Source of the DNA: Rhodococcus sp. W8901 | GTDB taxonomy: Bacteria; Actinomycetota; Actinomycetes; Mycobacteriales; Mycobacteriaceae | Direction: 5' to 3' | DNA: 64,000 nucleotides | NCBI RefSeq assembly: GCF_013348805.1 | Contig: NZ_CP054690.1 | Span: 1,612,001 to 1,676,000 of the forward strand | The notes under the pieces: model-generated | Told to the model about the DNA's origin: nothing | The model's input: the letters and a program-made list of their open reading frames with translations, nothing else | The model's database searches: none | Program-made: the position numbers and the translations under genes | Shown here: one piece after another, positions 6,236-30,720 of the stretch | How positions within the stretch are numbered: the stretch's first letter is position 1 | How the letters are laid out: every line of letters begins with the position of its first letter

Positions 6236-7324
6236 ATGCAGTTCGGAATCTTCACCGTCGGTGACGTGACCACGGACCCCACGACCGGCCGGACCCCGAC
6301 CGAGGCTGAGCGCATCAAGGCGATGGTCGCGATCGCGGAGAAGGCCGAGGAGGTCGGGCTCGACGTGTTCGCCACCGGCGAGCACCACAACCCGCCGTTC
6401 GTGCCGTCGTCGCCGACGACGATGCTCGGCTACATCGCCGCCCGCACCGAGCGGATCATGCTGTCGACGTCCACGACGCTGATCACGACCAACGACCCGG
6501 TGAAGATCGCCGAGGACTTCGCGATGCTCCAGCACCTCGCGGACGGTCGCGTCGACCTCATGCTCGGCCGTGGCAACACCGGTCCCGTGTACCCGTGGTT
6601 CGGCAAGGACATCCGCGAGGGCATCCCTCTGGCGGTCGAGAACTACGCGCTGCTGCACAAGCTGTGGCGTGAGGACGTCGTGAACTGGCAGGGCCGCTTC
6701 CGCACGCCGCTGCAATCGTTCACCTCGACGCCGCGTCCGCTCGACGACGTCCCGCCGTTCGTGTGGCACGGGTCGATCCGCAGCCCGGAGATCGCCGAGC
6801 AGGCCGCGTACTACGGCGACGGCTTCTTCGCCAACAACATCTTCTGGCCCCGCGATCACTTCGTCCGACTGATCGACCTCTACCGTCGTCGCTTCGAACA
6901 CTACGGTCACGGCTCGGCCGATCAGGCGATCGTCGGCCTCGGTGGCCAGGTGTTCATGCGCAAGAACTCCCAGGACGCGGTCCGCGAGTTCCGGCCGTAC
7001 TTCGACAACGCCCCGGTCTACGGGCACGGGCCGTCGCTCGAGGAGTTCACCGATCAGACGCCGCTCACCGTCGGCAGCCCGCAGGAAGTCATCGACAAGA
7101 CCCTCTCGTTCCGGCAGAGCTTCGGCGACTACCAGCGTCAGCTGTTCCTGATGGACCACGCCGGACTCCCGCTGAAGACCGTCCTCGAGCAACTCGACCT
7201 GCTGGGCGAGGAGGTCGTGCCGGTGCTGCGACGCGAGTTCGACGCGCTGCGCCCCGCACACGTCCCCGAGGCTCCCACGCATGCGAGCCTGCTGGCCGCG
7301 AAGAAGACGGAGGTGCTGTCGTGA
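6236..7324 (+). CDS. LLM-class flavin-dependent oxidoreductase (CE1758 type)
   Basis: 362 aa from ATG at 6236, preceded by TTTGGAGG. It is a luciferase-like TIM-barrel monooxygenase. It starts MQFGIFTVGDV and includes GLDVFATGEHHNPPFVPSSP (flavin pocket), a typical TTLITTNDPVKIAEDFAMLQ stretch and LMLGRGNTGPVYPWFG. The pattern fits the actinobacterial CE1758-like family, which is regularly encoded with a partner NAD(P)H:FMN reductase (CE1759-like). That partner follows here with a 4-nt overlap but is frameshifted. TATAGT about 30 nt upstream of the start is a possible -10 box. The substrate is unknown. Confidence 0.9.
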   Translation: MQFGIFTVGDVTTDPTTGRTPTEAERIKAMVAIAEKAEEVGLDVFATGEHHNPPFVPSSPTTMLGYIAARTERIMLSTSTTLITTNDPVKIAEDFAMLQHLADGRVDLMLGRGNTGPVYPWFGKDIREGIPLAVENYALLHKLWREDVVNWQGRFRTPLQSFTSTPRPLDDVPPFVWHGSIRSPEIAEQAAYYGDGFFANNIFWPRDHFVRLIDLYRRRFEHYGHGSADQAIVGLGGQVFMRKNSQDAVREFRPYFDNAPVYGHGPSLEEFTDQTPLTVGSPQEVIDKTLSFRQSFGDYQRQLFLMDHAGLPLKTVLEQLDLLGEEVVPVLRREFDALRPAHVPEAPTHASLLAAKKTEVLS

Positions 7325-26016: not shown

Positions 26017-26024
26017 CGCGAAAA

Positions 26025-26051
26025 GGGCCGTGCGGTCCTACCGCACGGCCC
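26025..26051 (-). terminator. Terminator for the 50-aa peptide gene
   Basis: A perfect 12-bp stem, GGGCCGTGCGGT/ACCGCACGGCCC, closes on the loop CCT. Read on the minus strand it is followed by TTTTCGCG, a short T tract, so it mainly serves the leftward small gene ending at 26084. It also lies just past the DUF255 stop. Confidence 0.85.
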
Positions 26052-26083
26052 TGCTGCGATTCCCGTCCGGGAATCCCTCGGTG

Positions 26084-26236
26084 TTACAGGCTGCCGCCGA
26101 GGCTGCCAGTGACGCCACTGAACCAGGCGGAGATGCCGGCGAGGGCATCGTTGGCGGCCGTGATGTAGCCGGTGAGAACGGTGTCGACACTCCCGACGGG
26201 GATTGCGATGAGACCGGTGATCGAACCGAAGTCCAT
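26084..26236 (-). CDS. Tiny leaderless protein 1 (50 aa), porin-peptide-like
   Basis: 50 aa from ATG at 26236 with TTTGGAGG 6 nt upstream. The sequence starts MDFGSITGLIAIPVGS and ends WFSGVTGSLGGSL. It is almost wholly hydrophobic, Gly, Ser and Thr, without Cys, Arg, Lys or a cleavable signal. It could form an amphipathic or membrane helix. Size and composition recall the PorA/PorH/ProtX peptides of Corynebacterium, which reach the mycolate outer membrane without a signal peptide and are O-mycoloylated. It is the last of six such genes around the mycoloyltransferase and lacks the M-x-S start of the others (Ser is at position 5). The gene is well supported; the channel role is inferred. Confidence 0.7.
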   Translation of the reverse strand: MDFGSITGLIAIPVGSVDTVLTGYITAANDALAGISAWFSGVTGSLGGSL

Positions 26237-26256
26237 GGTGTACCTCCAAAAGAATT

Positions 26257-26279
26257 GTGGGGCGGCCAGGCCGCCCCAC
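26257..26279 (-). terminator. Terminator between tiny genes 2 and 1
   Basis: An inverted repeat with GTGGGGCGGCC arms (26257-26267 with 26269-26279; the central bases form the loop) is followed on the minus strand by AATTCTTTT. It lies 47 nt past the stop of the 34-aa gene and only ~10 nt before the ribosome-binding site of the 50-aa gene, so it may attenuate readthrough into it. Confidence 0.8.
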
Positions 26280-26326
26280 ACGGTGGGGAAGCTCCTCGGT
26301 GGGAGCGGGTGTTCGTGTCGACAGCG

Positions 26327-26431
26327 TCAGCTGTTGAAGATGCCCGCGACCGAACCGGTGATCGTGGTGAACAGGCCCTGGAGCGCGTCCAGCGAGCCGA
26401 GTCCCTTGAAGATGTCCTCGATCGAAGCCAT
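26327..26431 (-). CDS. Tiny leaderless protein 2 (34 aa), porin-peptide-like
   Basis: 34 aa from ATG at 26431 with TTAGGAGAG 6 nt upstream, a near-ideal ribosome-binding site. It starts MASIEDIFKGLGSLDALQGL and ends SVAGIFNS. A helical heptad-like spacing of Ile, Phe and Leu with one Lys and three acidic residues gives a clearly amphipathic helix. There is no signal peptide and no Cys. The length is close to that of C. glutamicum PorA (about 45 aa) and ProtX. It shares the M-x-S-[LI]-x-D-[IL] start with tiny proteins 3 and 4. It is easily missed by automatic annotation because of size. Confidence 0.72.
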   Translation of the reverse strand: MASIEDIFKGLGSLDALQGLFTTITGSVAGIFNS

Positions 26432-26797
26432 GTAACTCTCCTAACGTGAATGCGGGTGGCGCAATTGTCCGCAGCTGTGTGCGGGCATGCGTCTATGTTC
26501 AATCGCAAGCATGTGCTTGTGACCGGAGTGAAGGTAGCAACCCATTGATGCCAGTGTGGTGAATTTGGTGAATCTGATCGACGCGGTTTCGCGGTGCAAA
26601 ATGCCGGGGGAGCGCCGAATTCTGCCACTTCAAACAAATATTTGATCACTTGCCCGTTCGTCGGGTCGGGGAATGCCCGCGCGACCGAAGGGGCGACGTC
26701 GCTCTTGGGTCGACGAGGTGAATGCGCCAGGGGCCCGCGCATGGACGCACGGGCCCCTGGAATCGCACTCACGGAGTCTTGAAAGTTGCGACGTGCC
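26432..26797. other. 366-bp region between tiny genes 3 and 2
   Basis: This holds the terminator of gene 3 (26727-26760) and, to its left, the presumed promoter of gene 2. A 14-bp inverted repeat CAAGCA-TG-TGCTTG lies at 26506-26519, and a notably AT-rich stretch (26560-26650) contrasts with the surrounding GC content. No further credible ORF with a ribosome-binding site was found on either strand. Confidence 0.5.
26727..26760 (-). terminator. Terminator after tiny gene 3
   Basis: The stem CCAGGGGCCCG/CGGGCCCCTGG has flanking GC pairs and lies 37 nt beyond the stop of the 38-aa gene on the minus strand. Confidence 0.82.
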
Positions 26798-26914
26798 TCA
26801 GCTCAGTGCGAGACCGGCGTAATCGATCAAGTTACGGAGCGACTGAAGCACTCCCACGCCGAGAGCGTCGAGGCTCATGACGGGAATCTTGATCAGGTCT
26901 GCGAGCGAACTCAT
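26798..26914 (-). CDS. Tiny leaderless protein 3 (38 aa), porin-peptide-like
   Basis: 38 aa from ATG at 26914 with CTGGAGGC 5 nt upstream. It starts MSSLADLIKIPVMSLDAL and ends RNLIDYAGLALS. It is an amphipathic hydrophobic sequence with one Lys, one Arg and a few Asp, no Cys and no signal peptide. Its first seven residues (MSSLADL) nearly repeat those of tiny protein 4 (MGSLADI). It is read leftward behind gene 4 and ended by its own hairpin. Function is inferred only from composition and from the neighbouring mycoloyltransferase. Confidence 0.7.
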   Translation of the reverse strand: MSSLADLIKIPVMSLDALGVGVLQSLRNLIDYAGLALS

Positions 26915-26933
26915 GTCTTGCCTCCAGGTAGAT

Positions 26934-26955
26934 GCAGGCCTCGTGGAGGCTCTGC
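26934..26955 (-). terminator. Hairpin after tiny gene 4
   Basis: GCAG-GCCTC / GAGGC-T-CTGC around the loop GTG (one bulged base) lies 40 nt past the stop of the 37-aa gene and just before the ribosome-binding site of the 38-aa gene. It is weaker than the other hairpins of the cluster. A 10-bp palindrome GATTCGAATC lies at 26965-26974. Confidence 0.55.
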
Positions 26956-26995
26956 CAGTCGAATGATTCGAATCAGGGCAGGACCGCGGGCCAGG

Positions 26996-27109
26996 TCAGG
27001 CCTCGCTGCTCGTGACGATGTCGCCGAGCCAATCGAGAATGGTCTTGACCGTGTTTCCCGCCAGTTCGATCGACTGGATGGAATCGAAGATGTCCGCTAA
27101 GGAACCCAT
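26996..27109 (-). CDS. Tiny leaderless protein 4 (37 aa), porin-peptide-like
   Basis: 37 aa from ATG at 27109 with GGGAG 5 nt upstream. It starts MGSLADIFDSIQSIELAGN and ends DWLGDIVTSSEA. It is acidic, with five Asp/Glu and one Lys, and the hydrophobic residues fall on one helix face. There is no Cys and no signal peptide. It is the first small gene after the mycoloyltransferase in transcription order, 151 bp downstream of it. An anionic amphipathic peptide of this size resembles the acidic PorH partner of corynebacterial channels, but there is no sequence identity I can claim. Confidence 0.7.
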   Translation of the reverse strand: MGSLADIFDSIQSIELAGNTVKTILDWLGDIVTSSEA

Positions 27110-27260
27110 ATCTACTCCCGACAGGTTGCGGCAACACACTGCTGTCGAGCTCCCGACAGTAATGCGAGTGCCGAGTTCTGCACGAGCAATTGCGCGTGCC
27201 AGTCGACTGTAACAACGACTGGTCGGTTCGTCCGGGTAACACCAAATGGTCGATCGGTGG

Positions 27261-28283
27261 CTATCGAAGAGCCGCCTCGATGGTGGGCCACGAGCGACCG
27301 AGTTCGTCGCGCCAGTACGGCCACGCGTGCACACCCACCGGTTGGGCACTGCGGGTCACGTCGGCGCCCGCGTCTCGAAGAGCCTGCGCCAGTTGGTCGG
27401 TACACAGATTGGAGCCGGCCTCGAGCAGTCCGCCGACGACGACCCGGTCCTGAATGCCCTGTTGGTCGAGGGATTCGTGAGGGCCGGGTAGTCCGTTGCC
27501 GGACGAGAGATACACCTTCTTCCCGGCGAGGGCGGACGCGTTGCGGAACAGATCGTGTTCACGCCAGACGTCGTTGCCCTCCGGGCCCCACATCATCTCG
27601 GAGTTGGCCATGCCGTTGAGCACGACCAGATCGGTCAGCGCGCGCCCGACGGGACCGTCGGTGACGTAGCAGCCGCTGTAGCCGACGACTCCGTCGTACA
27701 GCTGTGGTTCGCGTGCGGCCAGCATCACGGCTCCCTGTGCCCCGGAGGAGATTCCGCCGATGACGTTGCGGCCGTTGGTGTCAAGTTGGGCATCGATGAG
27801 TGGGGGCAGTTCCTTCGACAGGAACGTCTCCCACTGGGTCCGCCCGAACTTCGGGTGGTCCTGGGTCCAGTCGGTGAAGAGAGTTCCGGTACCGCCGACC
27901 GGTAGGACGACATTGACGTTCTTGTCGGCGAAGAAGTCCTCCGCGTTGCCCCTGGTTCGATCGAGCCAGTTGCTGCTCTCGACCTGGCCGGAGTTGCCGT
28001 CGAGGAGGTAGAGCGCACCGCGGGGTTGACTCCGCTCGGCGGGCAGCAGCACGTTGACCGGCACTTCGCGGCGCATAGCCGGAGACGCGACCTGCAGAAG
28101 TAGTAGTCGATCGTCCACCGTCGTGATGCTGGTGATCGACGGTTGCGCGTCCGCGGCCACCTGGACGTATTCCGGTACGACCGTCCCGATCTCGGGTTCG
28201 GCTGCTGCCACTGAAGGAAGCGCCGTGAGGAGTCCTACAGTCAGCAGTCCCGCGGACAGTGCTCGAATATTCTTCCGCTGCAT
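27261..28283 (-). CDS. Secreted mycoloyltransferase (Ag85/esterase D family)
   Basis: 340 aa from ATG at 28283 with GGGGAG upstream; an in-frame ATG further upstream has no signal-like sequence after it. Residues 1-28 are a signal peptide (AGLLTVGLLTALPSVAAA). The mature alpha/beta hydrolase has YLLDGNSGQVESSNW, NVNVVLPVGGTGTLFTDW, HPKFGRTQWETFLSKELPP and the nucleophile Ser179 in GGISSGAQGA, with catalytic His319 in VGVHAWPYWR. These are the marks of the Ag85/Cmt (MytA-F) family, which transfers mycolic acids from trehalose monomycolate to trehalose, arabinogalactan or, for MytC, to serines of small porins. It is flanked on both sides by tiny leaderless genes, which is why a protein-mycoloylating (MytC-like) role is proposed. 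Confidence 0.88.
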   Translation of the reverse strand: MQRKNIRALSAGLLTVGLLTALPSVAAAEPEIGTVVPEYVQVAADAQPSITSITTVDDRLLLLQVASPAMRREVPVNVLLPAERSQPRGALYLLDGNSGQVESSNWLDRTRGNAEDFFADKNVNVVLPVGGTGTLFTDWTQDHPKFGRTQWETFLSKELPPLIDAQLDTNGRNVIGGISSGAQGAVMLAAREPQLYDGVVGYSGCYVTDGPVGRALTDLVVLNGMANSEMMWGPEGNDVWREHDLFRNASALAGKKVYLSSGNGLPGPHESLDQQGIQDRVVVGGLLEAGSNLCTDQLAQALRDAGADVTRSAQPVGVHAWPYWRDELGRSWPTIEAALR

Positions 28284-28484
28284 ACTTGTTCGATCTCCCC
28301 AGCTCGACGCGTTCAGATGCCTGGTGGCCGTGCGATCATCGGTCACGAGTGCATGCAAGTTCTCATCGCAGTATCCCTCCACGAGTGGGAGGCTGCGGGA
28401 CGGAGGTCGGTGCGGCTCGGGTCCTGCAGGCGATTGCTTCCCCGTGGGTCCGTCGCCATGCATTTCCGGTGCCGTACAGACACA

Positions 28485-28517
28485 ATCGGGGCCCGCGCAC
28501 ACAGCGCGAGCCCCGAT
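28485..28517 (-). terminator. Terminator after tiny gene 5
   Basis: The stem ATCGGGGC-c-CGCGC / GCGCG-a-GCCCCGAT has a single mismatch and loop ACACA. It lies 24 nt beyond the 39-aa gene stop and 200 nt upstream of the mycoloyltransferase start, so the two genes are probably separate transcripts. Confidence 0.8.
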
Positions 28518-28540
28518 GAGGTGCCCAGGGCACCAGTGTC

Positions 28541-28660
28541 TTACTGCTTCGGCAGTCCGTCGGGGTAGCCGCTCAGCGTGAAGAGGGACCCGATGCCCTT
28601 CATGATCTGCGCGCTCAGGCTCCCGGTCACATTTCCGAGTACTTCGTAGATGGATCCCAT
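28541..28660 (-). CDS. Tiny leaderless protein 5 (39 aa), porin-peptide-like
   Basis: 39 aa from ATG at 28660 with AAGGAGAG 3-4 nt upstream. It starts MGSIYEVLGNVTGSLSAQIM and ends GYPDGLPKQ. The first ~30 residues are hydrophobic/Gly/Ser with one Lys, followed by a short polar tail. No signal peptide, no Cys. It shares MGS-[LI] with tiny proteins 4 and 6. It is read leftward between tiny gene 6 and the mycoloyltransferase and ended by its own hairpin. Confidence 0.7.
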   Translation of the reverse strand: MGSIYEVLGNVTGSLSAQIMKGIGSLFTLSGYPDGLPKQ

Positions 28661-28779
28661 GACTCTCCTTAGATCAGACGATTCCGAGCGATTGTCAAAG
28701 CTGGATCGAGGCGGGCCGTATCACTCGATGCTGCCCGCCGCGGCTAGTAATCGCGGGGTTGGTAGGCCCGGTTCAGCTA

Positions 28780-28977
28780 TTAGCCCTTGGCCGGAGGCGC
28801 CGAGAAGCTGTCGATCGAGCCGAAGCCGATGGTGACGAGGTCACCCAGCGAGCCGAGGGCATCGGTGATGCTGGTCTGAGCGGAGCCGAGGAATGCGGGA
28901 AGCAGGCCATCGGCCGCGAGGGAGTTGAGCCCACCGTTTCCCAAGATCGCTCCCATAAGTCCTTCGAGTGAACCCAT
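28780..28977 (-). CDS. Tiny leaderless protein 6 (65 aa), porin-peptide-like
   Basis: 65 aa from ATG at 28977 with CAGGAGGC 5 nt upstream, an excellent ribosome-binding site. It starts MGSLEGLMGAILGNGGLNSL, continues through AADGLLPAFLGS and TDALGSLGDLVTIGFG, and ends SFSAPPAKG. It is very rich in Gly, Leu, Ser and Ala with regularly spaced Gly-Ser-Leu. No cleavable signal and no Cys. It is the longest of the six and the first in transcription order, 123 bp downstream of the WS/DGAT gene. Its size is similar to that of corynebacterial PorH (57 aa). Confidence 0.75.
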   Translation of the reverse strand: MGSLEGLMGAILGNGGLNSLAADGLLPAFLGSAQTSITDALGSLGDLVTIGFGSIDSFSAPPAKG

Positions 28978-29100: not shown

Positions 29101-30609
29101 TCACGGGATGGCGGGTCGGTTTCGAGAAAGTTCTCGGGAATCGGAGGAAGGTCCTTCGGTCTCTGGGAGCGTTGCGCGCTCGACCAGTGCGCGGAACGAC
29201 TCGGTGAGGAGGGCCTTGTAACGATCGGTGTCCGGCATCATCGCGGTGTCGGTGCAGAACGAGATCTCGATCTCGTCGCCGTGGTGCGACACGATCAGAT
29301 GTCTCAGTCCGACCTTGTCGATGATTCCGAGAATGCCGAAGCTCTTGACGAGAGGCGCACCGCGCAGGACCATGTCGTTACCGGTCCATGGGATGTTGCT
29401 GACCATCGTGTTGATGGTTTCGACGGTTCCCTCGGGCTGTTTGCGTAGACCCATCAGGCTTATGACGAGCTTCAGGAGCCAGGCCGGCGATGTGTCGATC
29501 CTGGACGCGGCTTCCTGGACATCCGGGTTCCGGTGCCGCTCCTTCTCGGCGCGGACCGATGCGTTGATGGCTCGGAGTCGTTGCACCGGGTCGTCGATAT
29601 CGGTGTGGAGATCCACCGCCATCAGCGCGAGATGGTTCGCACGGTTCCCGTCCGGATGGTCGGCCACGCCGGGGCGAGTGCCTCGCAGCGACATCGGCAC
29701 CAGCGTCGATAGAGAACTCGGCGGGGTTTCGCCCTTCTCGGCCAGGTAGGCGGCGAGAGCGCCGGAAATCGTAGCCAGGAGAACGTCGTTGAAGGTGACG
29801 CCCTCGACCGCTGCCTGCACGGCGCGGATGTCCTCGGGCGGGAAGCTCACGACGTCGAACGTGAGGTCAGGGGTGATGGCCGTGTTGAAGCGGGTTGCGG
29901 GTCGCCGTGGCGGTGCCGGGGCGATCGTGCCGGCCTCGACCTGTTCGGTGACTCGGCGCGCCGCCTCGCCCGACGTCGTGAGCCCCTGGCGGAAGTCGCG
30001 CCACTGCTGGGGGAGCCGGCCGATGGCCTTGACGAATTCTGCGGGCGTGAACCAGTTCGCCGACGTCGTCGGAACGGGCGGGTGAGTCTCCGAGCGACCG
30101 AAGATGCGCAACGCCAGGTCGCGGGCGGCCAGGCCGTCCCCGGAACTGTGATGGCAGCGCAGGACCGCGACGGTCATCCGGTCGGGCAGTCCGTCGATGC
30201 CGGTAACACCGGTGAGGAAATGCAGCTTCCACGGCGGCCTGGTGAGGTCGAGTGATTTGCCCGAGAATCGGGCGATGTGGTGTCGCAGGGCATCCCATCC
30301 CGGCCCGTCGACCGGCTCGACGATCACGTGCTGTGCGAGATCGAGGGTGGGGTCCGGAACCCAGAATGGATAGTCCAGCGCCAGAGGAATGTGCCGCAGA
30401 CGTCGGGTGAAGACTCCGCTGTAGCCAAGGCGCGGGCGCATCCACTCGATAGCCTCGGCCTGTGTGATCGGCGCGGCCTCGCCGGTGGTGTCGAACAAAT
30501 AGATGCCCGTCGAGTTCGAGATGTGGTTCTCGCCCTCGTGGTAGACGAAGTCGGCATCCTGCGGTGCCAGCCGGGTGATGCCACCCACTTCTCGCTCGGT
30601 CGTCGTCAC
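29101..30609 (-). CDS. Wax ester synthase / diacylglycerol acyltransferase (WS/DGAT)
   Basis: 502 aa from GTG at 30609, chosen for the GGGAGGG 7 nt upstream and a start VTTTEREVGGITRLAPQDAD typical of the family. The catalytic HHxxxDG motif is HHSSGDG at residues 153-159. The later conserved regions are SLRGTRPGVADHPDGNRANH and VETINTMVSNIPWTGNDMVL. These enzymes acylate diacylglycerol or fatty alcohols with acyl-CoA to make storage lipid. Some actinobacterial paralogues have other acceptors. It lies directly upstream of the tiny-protein cluster, in the same direction. Confidence 0.92.
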   Translation of the reverse strand: MTTTEREVGGITRLAPQDADFVYHEGENHISNSTGIYLFDTTGEAAPITQAEAIEWMRPRLGYSGVFTRRLRHIPLALDYPFWVPDPTLDLAQHVIVEPVDGPGWDALRHHIARFSGKSLDLTRPPWKLHFLTGVTGIDGLPDRMTVAVLRCHHSSGDGLAARDLALRIFGRSETHPPVPTTSANWFTPAEFVKAIGRLPQQWRDFRQGLTTSGEAARRVTEQVEAGTIAPAPPRRPATRFNTAITPDLTFDVVSFPPEDIRAVQAAVEGVTFNDVLLATISGALAAYLAEKGETPPSSLSTLVPMSLRGTRPGVADHPDGNRANHLALMAVDLHTDIDDPVQRLRAINASVRAEKERHRNPDVQEAASRIDTSPAWLLKLVISLMGLRKQPEGTVETINTMVSNIPWTGNDMVLRGAPLVKSFGILGIIDKVGLRHLIVSHHGDEIEISFCTDTAMMPDTDRYKALLTESFRALVERATLPETEGPSSDSRELSRNRPAIP

Positions 30610-30720
30610 AACGGTCCCTCCCAGGTCAGATCCGCCCAGGGTAAGCAGGTGAACCCGGATCTCGGGGTGTTTCGGGGACCTTCCGCGCATTCTCCGCAAA
30701 GGGGAATCTGGGTAATCCCT

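Follow-up and report, generated by a model that had tools for sequence, protein, structure and literature searches.

Three pairs of leaderless mini-protein genes around a mycoloyltransferase gene in Prescottella, candidates for O-mycoloylated mycomembrane proteins

The window (the whole stretch of DNA analysed, 64,000 nucleotides) comes from a Prescottella genome (Rhodococcus equi group) and carries six small minus-strand ORFs, P1 to P6, that surround the gene for a secreted mycoloyltransferase (Myt) and form three two-gene cassettes: P1-P2, P3-P4 and P5-P6. We consider it rather probable, from our computational analysis, that the three pairs encode leaderless, mostly acidic, amphipathic α-helical mini-proteins that are exported without a signal peptide, O-mycoloylated and located in the mycomembrane, where they may form hetero-oligomeric channels. 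Relatives hold such pairs too, and their linked enzyme, MytX, is kin to Cmt1/MytC, the Corynebacterium protein mycoloyltransferase that puts mycolate on PorA and PorH.

Gene pairs and their hairpins

The original prediction of six ORFs and a Myt gene on the minus strand was confirmed, with one amendment: the six genes around Myt hold their positions but are three gene pairs. In the first pair, P1 (28780..28977, 65 aa) is preceded by the Shine-Dalgarno (SD) sequence AGGAGG and P2 (28541..28660, 39 aa) by AAGGAG; in the second, P3 (26996..27109, 37 aa) by GGGAG and P4 (26798..26914, 38 aa) by GGAGG; and in the third, P5 (26327..26431, 34 aa) by AGGAG and P6 (26084..26236, 50 aa) by GGAGGT. With an upstream GTG start, P6 would have 65 aa instead. 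The Myt gene (27261..28283, also minus strand) encodes a protein of 340 aa, here called MytY. The near-ideal SD sites claimed for every ORF are borne out for five of them, with matches of five to six bases, and the description suits P3 least, because its GGGAG escaped the SD filters. As predicted, Cys is absent from all six ORFs, and no signal peptide was recognised, the first Lys or Arg being at residue 9 or later in each; leaderless here means without a basic N-terminus, judged by sequence inspection.

Each cassette probably ends at a strong minus-strand hairpin: after P2 for cassette 1 (inverted repeat I1, 28468..28534, -30.9 kcal/mol), after P4 for cassette 2 (I4, 26727..26760, -33.7 kcal/mol) and after P6 for cassette 3 (I2, 26024..26052, -29.6 kcal/mol, with 13-nt arms that are 100% complementary). 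Equivalent places in the four relatives folded gave -24.6 to -34.9, -34.4 to -42.5 and -30.5 to -38.8 kcal/mol, respectively, and a strong hairpin thus stands behind P2, P4 and P6 alike in all five genomes folded (the window and 4 of the 9 other loci in its genus, g1), as measured against 60 random stretches with a median of -18.4, a tenth percentile of -23.4 and a minimum of -38.2 kcal/mol. Two further minus-strand hairpins lie within pairs, one between P1 and P2 (I3, 28707..28742), near the random median at -20.7 kcal/mol, and one between P5 and P6 (I6, 26256..26280, -24.4 kcal/mol), which is the sole terminator-like site. Since the terminator scan returned this one site against 1.9 expected by shuffling, hairpins were judged by position and strength and not by a T tail. 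A sigma-70 promoter scan returned no sites.

Coding signal and conservation

Of the window's 254 ORFs that start with ATG and encode 30-70 aa, six rows pass a filter on SD and composition, namely five of the P ORFs and an internal start of P1, and 30 Markov-randomised windows gave two such rows in total. Near Myt locus L005, two antisense-type Ala/Thr/Arg-rich ORFs, unlike the P families, passed the filter applied there. Chance ORFs were rejected on the randomised-window comparison together with conservation in related genomes, the latter being the stronger proof that the ORFs are real. A search with the P1 profile gave matches in 41 of the family's 301 genomes, spread over 5 of its 31 genera; in an order-level sample there were matches in 8 of 298 genomes, every one in the same family. 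P2 comes after P1 in the relatives examined, the P4/P6 profile is found in 16 of the 301 genomes and 4 of the 31 genera, P3 has counterparts within the window's genus, and P5 has counterparts too. The complement varies, some relatives holding fewer than all six genes and others three or four different pairs at a single locus, with up to four side by side. Excluded from the 41 genomes is a divergent P1-like gene in G082 (genus g4), and short P1 matches inside long frames in G285, G111 and G197 (E 0.003-0.004) were dropped as chance. In G003, a genome 79% complete, P1 and P2 are without start codons and MytY is frameshifted.

Values of dN/dS were 0.36 for P1, 0.51 for P2, 0.55 for P3 and 0.19 for P4, and the in-frame pN/pS of each of these four is under both shifted-frame controls. 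P5 (dN/dS 0.83; in-frame pN/pS 0.86 versus 0.87 and 1.14 in shifted frames) and P6 (dN/dS 1.08; 1.06 versus 0.69 and 1.27) gain no support from this measure, their in-frame values not lying clearly under the shifted frame. A non-coding RNA was rejected, as there was no Rfam match at gathering score. Neither Pfam nor NCBIfam names P1-P6, and titles and abstract openings in the open-licence literature yielded no prior report of such proteins in Rhodococcus or Nocardia.

Properties of the peptides

Consistent with the amphipathic character originally predicted, the mean α-helical moment computed exceeds that of shuffles in every P family, and a β signal is absent. P1 is the weakest (z above 1 in 15 of 25 rows), and AlphaFold gives it a weak, though helical, model (mean pLDDT 66.5, pTM 0.34). 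Net charge runs from 0 to -5 among the six peptides of the window and from -8 to +1 across the families, which are mostly acidic, with P2 near neutral. In hhalign comparisons the first genes of the pairs are akin (probability 96 for P1-P5 and 94 for P3-P5, only 31 for P1-P3), as are the second genes P4 and P6 (95), and P2-h gives 93. Invariant Ser residues occur in P1 (S3, S19 and S32; 18 rows) and P2 (S3 and S30; 17 rows), and a C-terminal Ser in P4 (7/7) and P5 (7/7); where G007 and G009 carry P4 copies outside the locus, these have lost the terminal Ser. Searched against solved structures, the P2 profile matched only armadillo-repeat and importin chains, with E of 0.06 or worse. P3 has a W-x-G motif, and a type VII (WXG100/PE) substrate was considered and rejected, there being no Pfam or NCBIfam match and a length of 34-65 aa versus about 100.

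Linked mycoloyltransferases

MytY has a signal-like N-terminus (by eye) and matches Pfam Esterase at 1.7e-27; among solved structures Cmt1/MytC is its best match (187 bits, with PS1 at 148 and Ag85C at 88), and it keeps S179/E288/H319 in the S, E and H columns, in common with Cmt1. In an alignment of 16 rows, MytX, MytY and Cmt1 have a Cys pair in common that is absent from PS1, Ag85A and both of their own-genome kin. In 40 of the 41 P1 genomes, P2 is followed downstream within ~1.2 kb by a Myt on the same strand, and in the sole genome where none was seen (G167) the locus is cut by a contig end. Outside Prescottella, and also in three genomes of that genus, the Myt linked to the pairs falls in the Cmt1/MytC clade: 11 MytX rows and Cmt1 group in a 19-row clade (support 100/98), and for the MytX of a genome in g22 (a genus called Nocardia-like by kinship, as g23 is called Rhodococcus-like) the nearest solved structure is Cmt1 (238 bits; PS1 153, Ag85A 109). 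This placement covers 11 loci, with Cmt1 on a long branch (1.08), and the fork within the clade is open, so it speaks for kinship and does not establish strict MytX-Cmt1 orthology.

MytY forms a 10-row clade of its own, apart from the 19-row clade. The window has lost MytX and keeps a neighbour, MytY, and its genome has six Cmt1-clade paralogs elsewhere. The original prediction had given the mini-peptides their own enzyme, which is left unproved because the window Myt falls in this separate clade; at the same time MytX of the relatives strengthens the acylation idea through a link that is invisible in the window itself. Pairs are also found without a nearby Myt, namely P3-P4 in G007 (second copy), G008 and G009, P5-P6 in G010, and further pairs in g21, g23 and g27.

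Alternative explanations

The pairs could instead be lipid-storage partners, at the droplet or inner membrane, of a neighbouring wax ester synthase/diacylglycerol acyltransferase (WS/DGAT), which is almost as constant a neighbour as Myt: it adjoins the module in the window and in each of the nine other g1 loci that were checked, in both g21 loci, all seven g22 loci and the one g25 locus of one comparison and in four more g22 loci, and in G082 it lies beside the divergent P1-like gene and a possible partner, with no Myt in the 6.5 kb examined. In six g23 loci, however, the only WS/DGAT-like match is ~26% identical and ~3-5 kb upstream while Myt stays adjacent, and the restriction of P1 matches to one family in the order sample and the PorH/PorA-like pair layout likewise make this unlikely. 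True distant homology to PorA, PorH or ProtX, in place of mere likeness, is similarly improbable. It would suit the size class, pairing, SD sites and helix periodicity, the M-x-S start common to ProtX and the P families, and the 8.2 bits scored on the P2 profile by a partial ProtX (30 of 38 residues, from published primers), above all 500 shuffles. Against it, hhalign gives the P families a probability of 28 or less with PorA/PorH, in a test of limited power because PorH and PorA themselves give only 2, and the locus differs. Out of 500 shuffles, those that came up to the partial ProtX score numbered 2 on the P3/P5-type profile and 0 on P4, but also only 1 on PorH and 3 on PorA, so that the score mainly reads shared periodicity.

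We strongly doubt that the peptides serve the neighbouring mycoloyltransferases as cofactors or regulators, in the manner of chaperones or specificity factors, instead of being their substrates: small helical proteins in near-constant adjacency to MytX/MytY might act in this way, but three or four different pairs can share one locus, some pairs have no Myt nearby, and the peptides have no signal peptide though Myt looks secreted. Least probable are leaderless secreted surfactant or antimicrobial peptides akin to phenol-soluble modulins or leaderless bacteriocins, which are secreted and amphipathic, since despite the small size, lack of leaders, multi-gene cluster and amphipathic helices the window peptides are neutral to acidic whereas leaderless bacteriocins are usually cationic, gene order beside Myt is kept across genera, and no immunity or exporter family was found among the ten proteins scanned.

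Model and implications

As O-mycoloylated mini-proteins, the two partners of each cassette would be translated from their own SD sites, the cassette ending at its hairpin, and would cross the inner membrane by the signal-peptide-independent route common to PorA, PorH and ProtX. A Cmt1/MytC-like Myt would then transfer mycolate from trehalose monomycolate to conserved Ser residues of the peptides; this enzyme would be MytX where present, and in the window genome the task would fall to MytY or to one of the six paralogs in the Cmt1 clade. Once acylated, the partners would form hetero-oligomers in the mycomembrane, which may be pores. More tentatively, the Rhodococcus-Nocardia branch may possess a separate set of mini-proteins that form hetero-pairs, are anchored by mycolate, are unrelated in sequence to those of Corynebacterium and are encoded by genes that accompany one for a Cmt1-type enzyme, and Prescottella may have multiplied exchangeable pairs that build different channels.

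If so, protein O-mycoloylation and α-helical mini-porins would not be confined to Corynebacterium, and the anion-selective channel of R. equi that PMC9233653 cites from Riess et al. (2003) would have candidates in the P pairs. Export to the mycomembrane without a signal peptide and protein O-mycoloylation outside Corynebacterium are presented as open questions in PMC12632848 and PMC11066868, and the conserved gene set of the Rhodococcus-Nocardia branch, in which very small leaderless proteins are tied to an enzyme of Cmt1 type, would offer ready substrates and enzymes for studying both.

Comparison with known systems

Known Rhodococcus and Nocardia channels had been said to be larger and to have signal peptides, in agreement with the account in PMC9233653 of the MspA-like porins PorARc, PorARr/PorBRr and NfpA/NfpB (~20 kDa subunits, PF09203, signal peptides). 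The putative P channels would be of the same outer-membrane kind, and some of these porins likewise come as two-gene sets (described in the same source), but the P proteins have no Pfam MspA match. Antigen 85 and PS1 are of the same Esterase-type family as MytY, which keeps their S/E/H columns, but a 100/100 branch separates Ag85A and PS1 from both MytX and MytY.

A close likeness is to PorH-PorA: two adjacent genes, leaderless mini-proteins of ≤80 aa, strong SD sites, acidic and α-amphipathic sequences, and the existence of a Cmt1-type protein mycoloyltransferase. Unlike PorH-PorA, the P locus includes a Myt gene among the pairs, of which as many as four stand abreast, and it is bordered by genes for a WS/DGAT and a DsbH-type thioredoxin, not by groEL2 and ppk2, between which PMC5944148 places porH/porA. 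By computation, the α periodicity of the P families resembles that of the PorH/PorA controls. ProtX, for which we know of no pair partner, shares the M-x-S start with the P families and a C-terminal Ser with P4 and P5. In C. glutamicum, ProtX (cg2875) is described in PMC5310785 as a 38-aa protein without a classical signal sequence that is O-mycoloylated at the penultimate Ser37 in a MytC-dependent manner.

Gene structure and conservation of the mini-protein locus

In the single-contig, 5.71-Mb genome of Rhodococcus sp. W8901, the six leaderless minus-strand ORFs and the mycoloyltransferase (Myt) that they surround were borne out by ORF reading of the window, at the positions where the original prediction had placed them as a candidate O-mycoloylated channel-peptide system around an Ag85-type enzyme. 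Numbered by order of transcription, P1 to P6 (65, 39, 37, 38, 34 and 50 aa) form the cassettes P1-P2, P3-P4 and P5-P6. The Myt matches the Pfam Esterase family, and none of P1-P6 had an explanatory match in Pfam or NCBIfam. A filter for ATG start, Shine-Dalgarno (SD) site and composition, applied to the 254 window ORFs of 30-70 aa, kept six rows, all inside the cluster (five of P1-P6 and one internal P1 start; P3 failed on SD), and the same filter on thirty randomised windows kept two rows altogether. With six to eight sequences each, dN/dS was 0.36 (P1), 0.51 (P2), 0.55 (P3), 0.19 (P4), 0.83 (P5) and 1.08 (P6), and in-frame pN/pS for P1-P4 was lower than in both shifted frames, so P1-P4 are under purifying selection. 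In-frame pN/pS about equalled that of one shifted frame for P5 and exceeded one for P6, giving neither support in the dN/dS test, though both are retained in position and pattern.

The P1-P2-Myt locus is present in Prescottella defluvii, P. equi, P. subtropica, Rhodococcus sp. OK519, R. oryzae and R. spelaei, and counterparts of P1-P6 in relatives keep the gene order of the window. Among the ten genomes of the window's genus (g1, Prescottella) with P1, all six genes are found in the window, G001, G003 (P1 and P2 without a start codon), G004, G006 and G007; G005 has P1-P4 followed by the contig end, G002 has P1, P2, P5 and P6, and G009 and G012 have P1-P2 only at the main locus. The order in this genus is P1-P2, then a second Myt (MytX), an extra pair or neither, then the window's Myt or its counterpart (MytY), and then P3-P4 and P5-P6 where present. 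MytX directly follows P1-P2 in G001, G003 and G006; in G005 and G007 the extra pair, g (52 aa) and h (40-41 aa), stands between P2 and MytY in place of other species' MytX (6316-6698 in locus L049, 6216-6596 in L051).

The 130 nt behind each gene were folded for the window and for four relatives. The most stable hairpin lay between -24.6 and -42.5 kcal/mol behind P2, P4 and P6, and between -10.7 and -24.6 kcal/mol behind P1, P3 and P5 (random stretches: median -18.4, minimum -38.2 kcal/mol). Profile comparison linked the first genes (P1-P5 96, P3-P5 94, P1-P3 only 31) and likewise the second genes (P4-P6 95, P2-h 93, P2-P6 77). We read the locus as a single kind of two-gene unit that has been multiplied.

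Distribution and linkage to mycoloyltransferases

An initial P1 profile matched 43 of the 301 genomes of the family, of which three look like chance hits; at E 0.001, an improved profile matched 41 genomes, spread over 5 of 31 genera: 10 in g1, 3 in g21 (R. oryzae/spelaei type), 19 in g22 (Nocardia-like, 6-9 Mb), 8 in g23 (Rhodococcus-like) and 1 in g25. In an order-wide sample it matched 8 of 298 genomes, every one in the same family. At 40 of the 41 P1 places inspected, a Myt lies on the same strand downstream of P2, within about 1.2 kb; the one exception is G167, where the contig ends before any Myt. These 41 genomes are not independent of one another, and the layout is common to five genera. 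In the window's genome, 0 of 15 other Myt loci (about 1.5 kb flanks; two loci are pieces of one gene) carried a P-like ORF, and the P2 profile found no second place beyond this cluster.

Two Nocardia-like loci vary the first cassette, with the entire P1-P2 pair in tandem duplicate (L098, G127) or P2 followed by a second P1 (L094, G294). At about 5-8 kb downstream of their P1-P2-Myt module, Rhodococcus-like genomes carry single SD-bearing, hydrophobic, Ser-rich ORFs of 34 aa (L086, about 15105; L089, about 16032; L090, about 13780; reverse-complement coordinates), which may be a further mini-protein family.

Among solved structures, the window's Myt is best matched by Cmt1/MytC, the Corynebacterium protein mycoloyltransferase (187 bits; PS1 148, Ag85C 88), and the g22 MytX after P1-P2 is closer still (238 bits; PS1 153, Ag85A 109). 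This closeness matters because Cmt1/MytC mycoloylates PorA, as demonstrated in vitro, and is required for it in vivo, according to PMC11927696; Cmt1 orthologs in Nocardia and Rhodococcus are mentioned in a mycoloylome paper (PMC11066868). In a 41-row tree, a 100/100 branch sets Ag85A and PS1 on one side. Opposite them lie a 19-row clade (100/98), made up of 11 MytX rows, Cmt1, six paralogs from the window's genome and a single row from Tomitella, and a separate 10-row MytY clade (100/100). Since the Cmt1 branch is long and the clade fork open, we claim no strict orthology between MytX and Cmt1; the remaining g22 loci are called MytX-like solely from 38-42% identity to the window's Myt. MytX and MytY stand in tandem in G006 and others, and MytY without MytX in the window, G002, G004, G005, G007, G009, G012 and G221; identity assigns G074 and G212 to this second group. 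MytY S179, E288 and H319 align with the family's catalytic Ser, Glu and His. Over 16 aligned rows, a Cys pair is common to MytX, MytY and Cmt1 and absent from PS1, Ag85A and two own-genome kin. One Myt paralog of the window's genome (G000:C1:1924509-1925332; L009, L016) matches in two different frames, so that either a frameshift or an error in sequencing interrupts it.

Peptide properties and proposed function

The mean alpha-periodic hydrophobic moment exceeded that of shuffles in every P family (z 1.1 to 3.3, P1 weakest), as in Corynebacterium-genome controls (PorH z 4.5, PorA z 2.1), and beta-angle periodicity gave no signal above shuffles in any P family. The AlphaFold model of P1 is helical, with low confidence. 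P1 and P2 share an invariant Ser3; S19 and S32 are likewise invariant in P1, and S30 in P2. A C-terminal Ser is invariant in P4 (7/7) and P5 (7/7), resembling PorH S56 and ProtX S37 as described in PMC12632848 and PMC5310785; in P4 copies distant from the locus it is not kept. Based on the helix periodicity and conserved Ser, we propose that the P proteins, once translated, would be exported without a signal peptide and O-mycoloylated by a Cmt1-clade or MytY enzyme, each pair assembling in the mycomembrane as a hetero-oligomer. With Met included, the average masses calculated for the window's P1-P6 are 6194.0, 4030.6, 3911.3, 3958.7, 3474.9 and 4845.4 Da; the proposed acylation would increase each by at least one mycolate, which for C32:0 means 478 Da (PMC5310785) and for a different chain length a different increment.

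Pairs without a nearby Myt count against this proposal: G008 (P3-P4) and G010 (P5-P6) keep a pair at a locus without Myt, and P5-P6-like pairs in g21, g23 and g27 have no Myt within the fetched stretches. G007 has a second P3-P4 copy on a different contig, and the sole P3-P4 found in G009 is far from the main locus. The pairs may instead serve lipid storage: a gene for a wax ester synthase/diacylglycerol acyltransferase (WS/DGAT)-type enzyme (29101-30699) adjoins the module and, among loci tested, is almost as constant as Myt (the window, 9/9 other g1, both g21, 7/7 g22 and one g25), so that such a role is possible, but six g23 loci have merely a distant WS/DGAT match (26%), 3-5 kb off. G082, a smaller genome from a different genus, has at L151 a divergent P1-like ORF of 44 aa and a possible 58-aa partner beside a WS/DGAT gene, with no Myt in the 6.5 kb of sequence covered.

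Comparison with known mini-porins

Mini-porins and their kin are described from Corynebacterium (PorA, PorH, PorACj, PorACur and ProtX; PMC3792995, PMC5944148 and PMC5310785), and the Rhodococcus and Nocardia channels known so far are MspA-like (PMC9233653); among titles and abstract openings we found no prior account of leaderless mini-proteins of Rhodococcus or Nocardia. Profile comparison of PorA and PorH with the P families gave no homology (28 or less). Partial ProtX scored above shuffles on several profiles, those of PorH and PorA included, which favours shared periodicity over descent. For C. glutamicum, an AlphaFold2 prediction arranges PorH and PorA, five copies of each, about a pore that mycoloylation sites encircle as a belt (PMC12632848), and the mycoloylated P pairs that we propose may form a similar pore. 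The P pairs are not members of the PorA-PorH-MytC system by sequence, and their locus differs from it in uniting a Myt gene with several pairs; on present evidence, they would function like that system.
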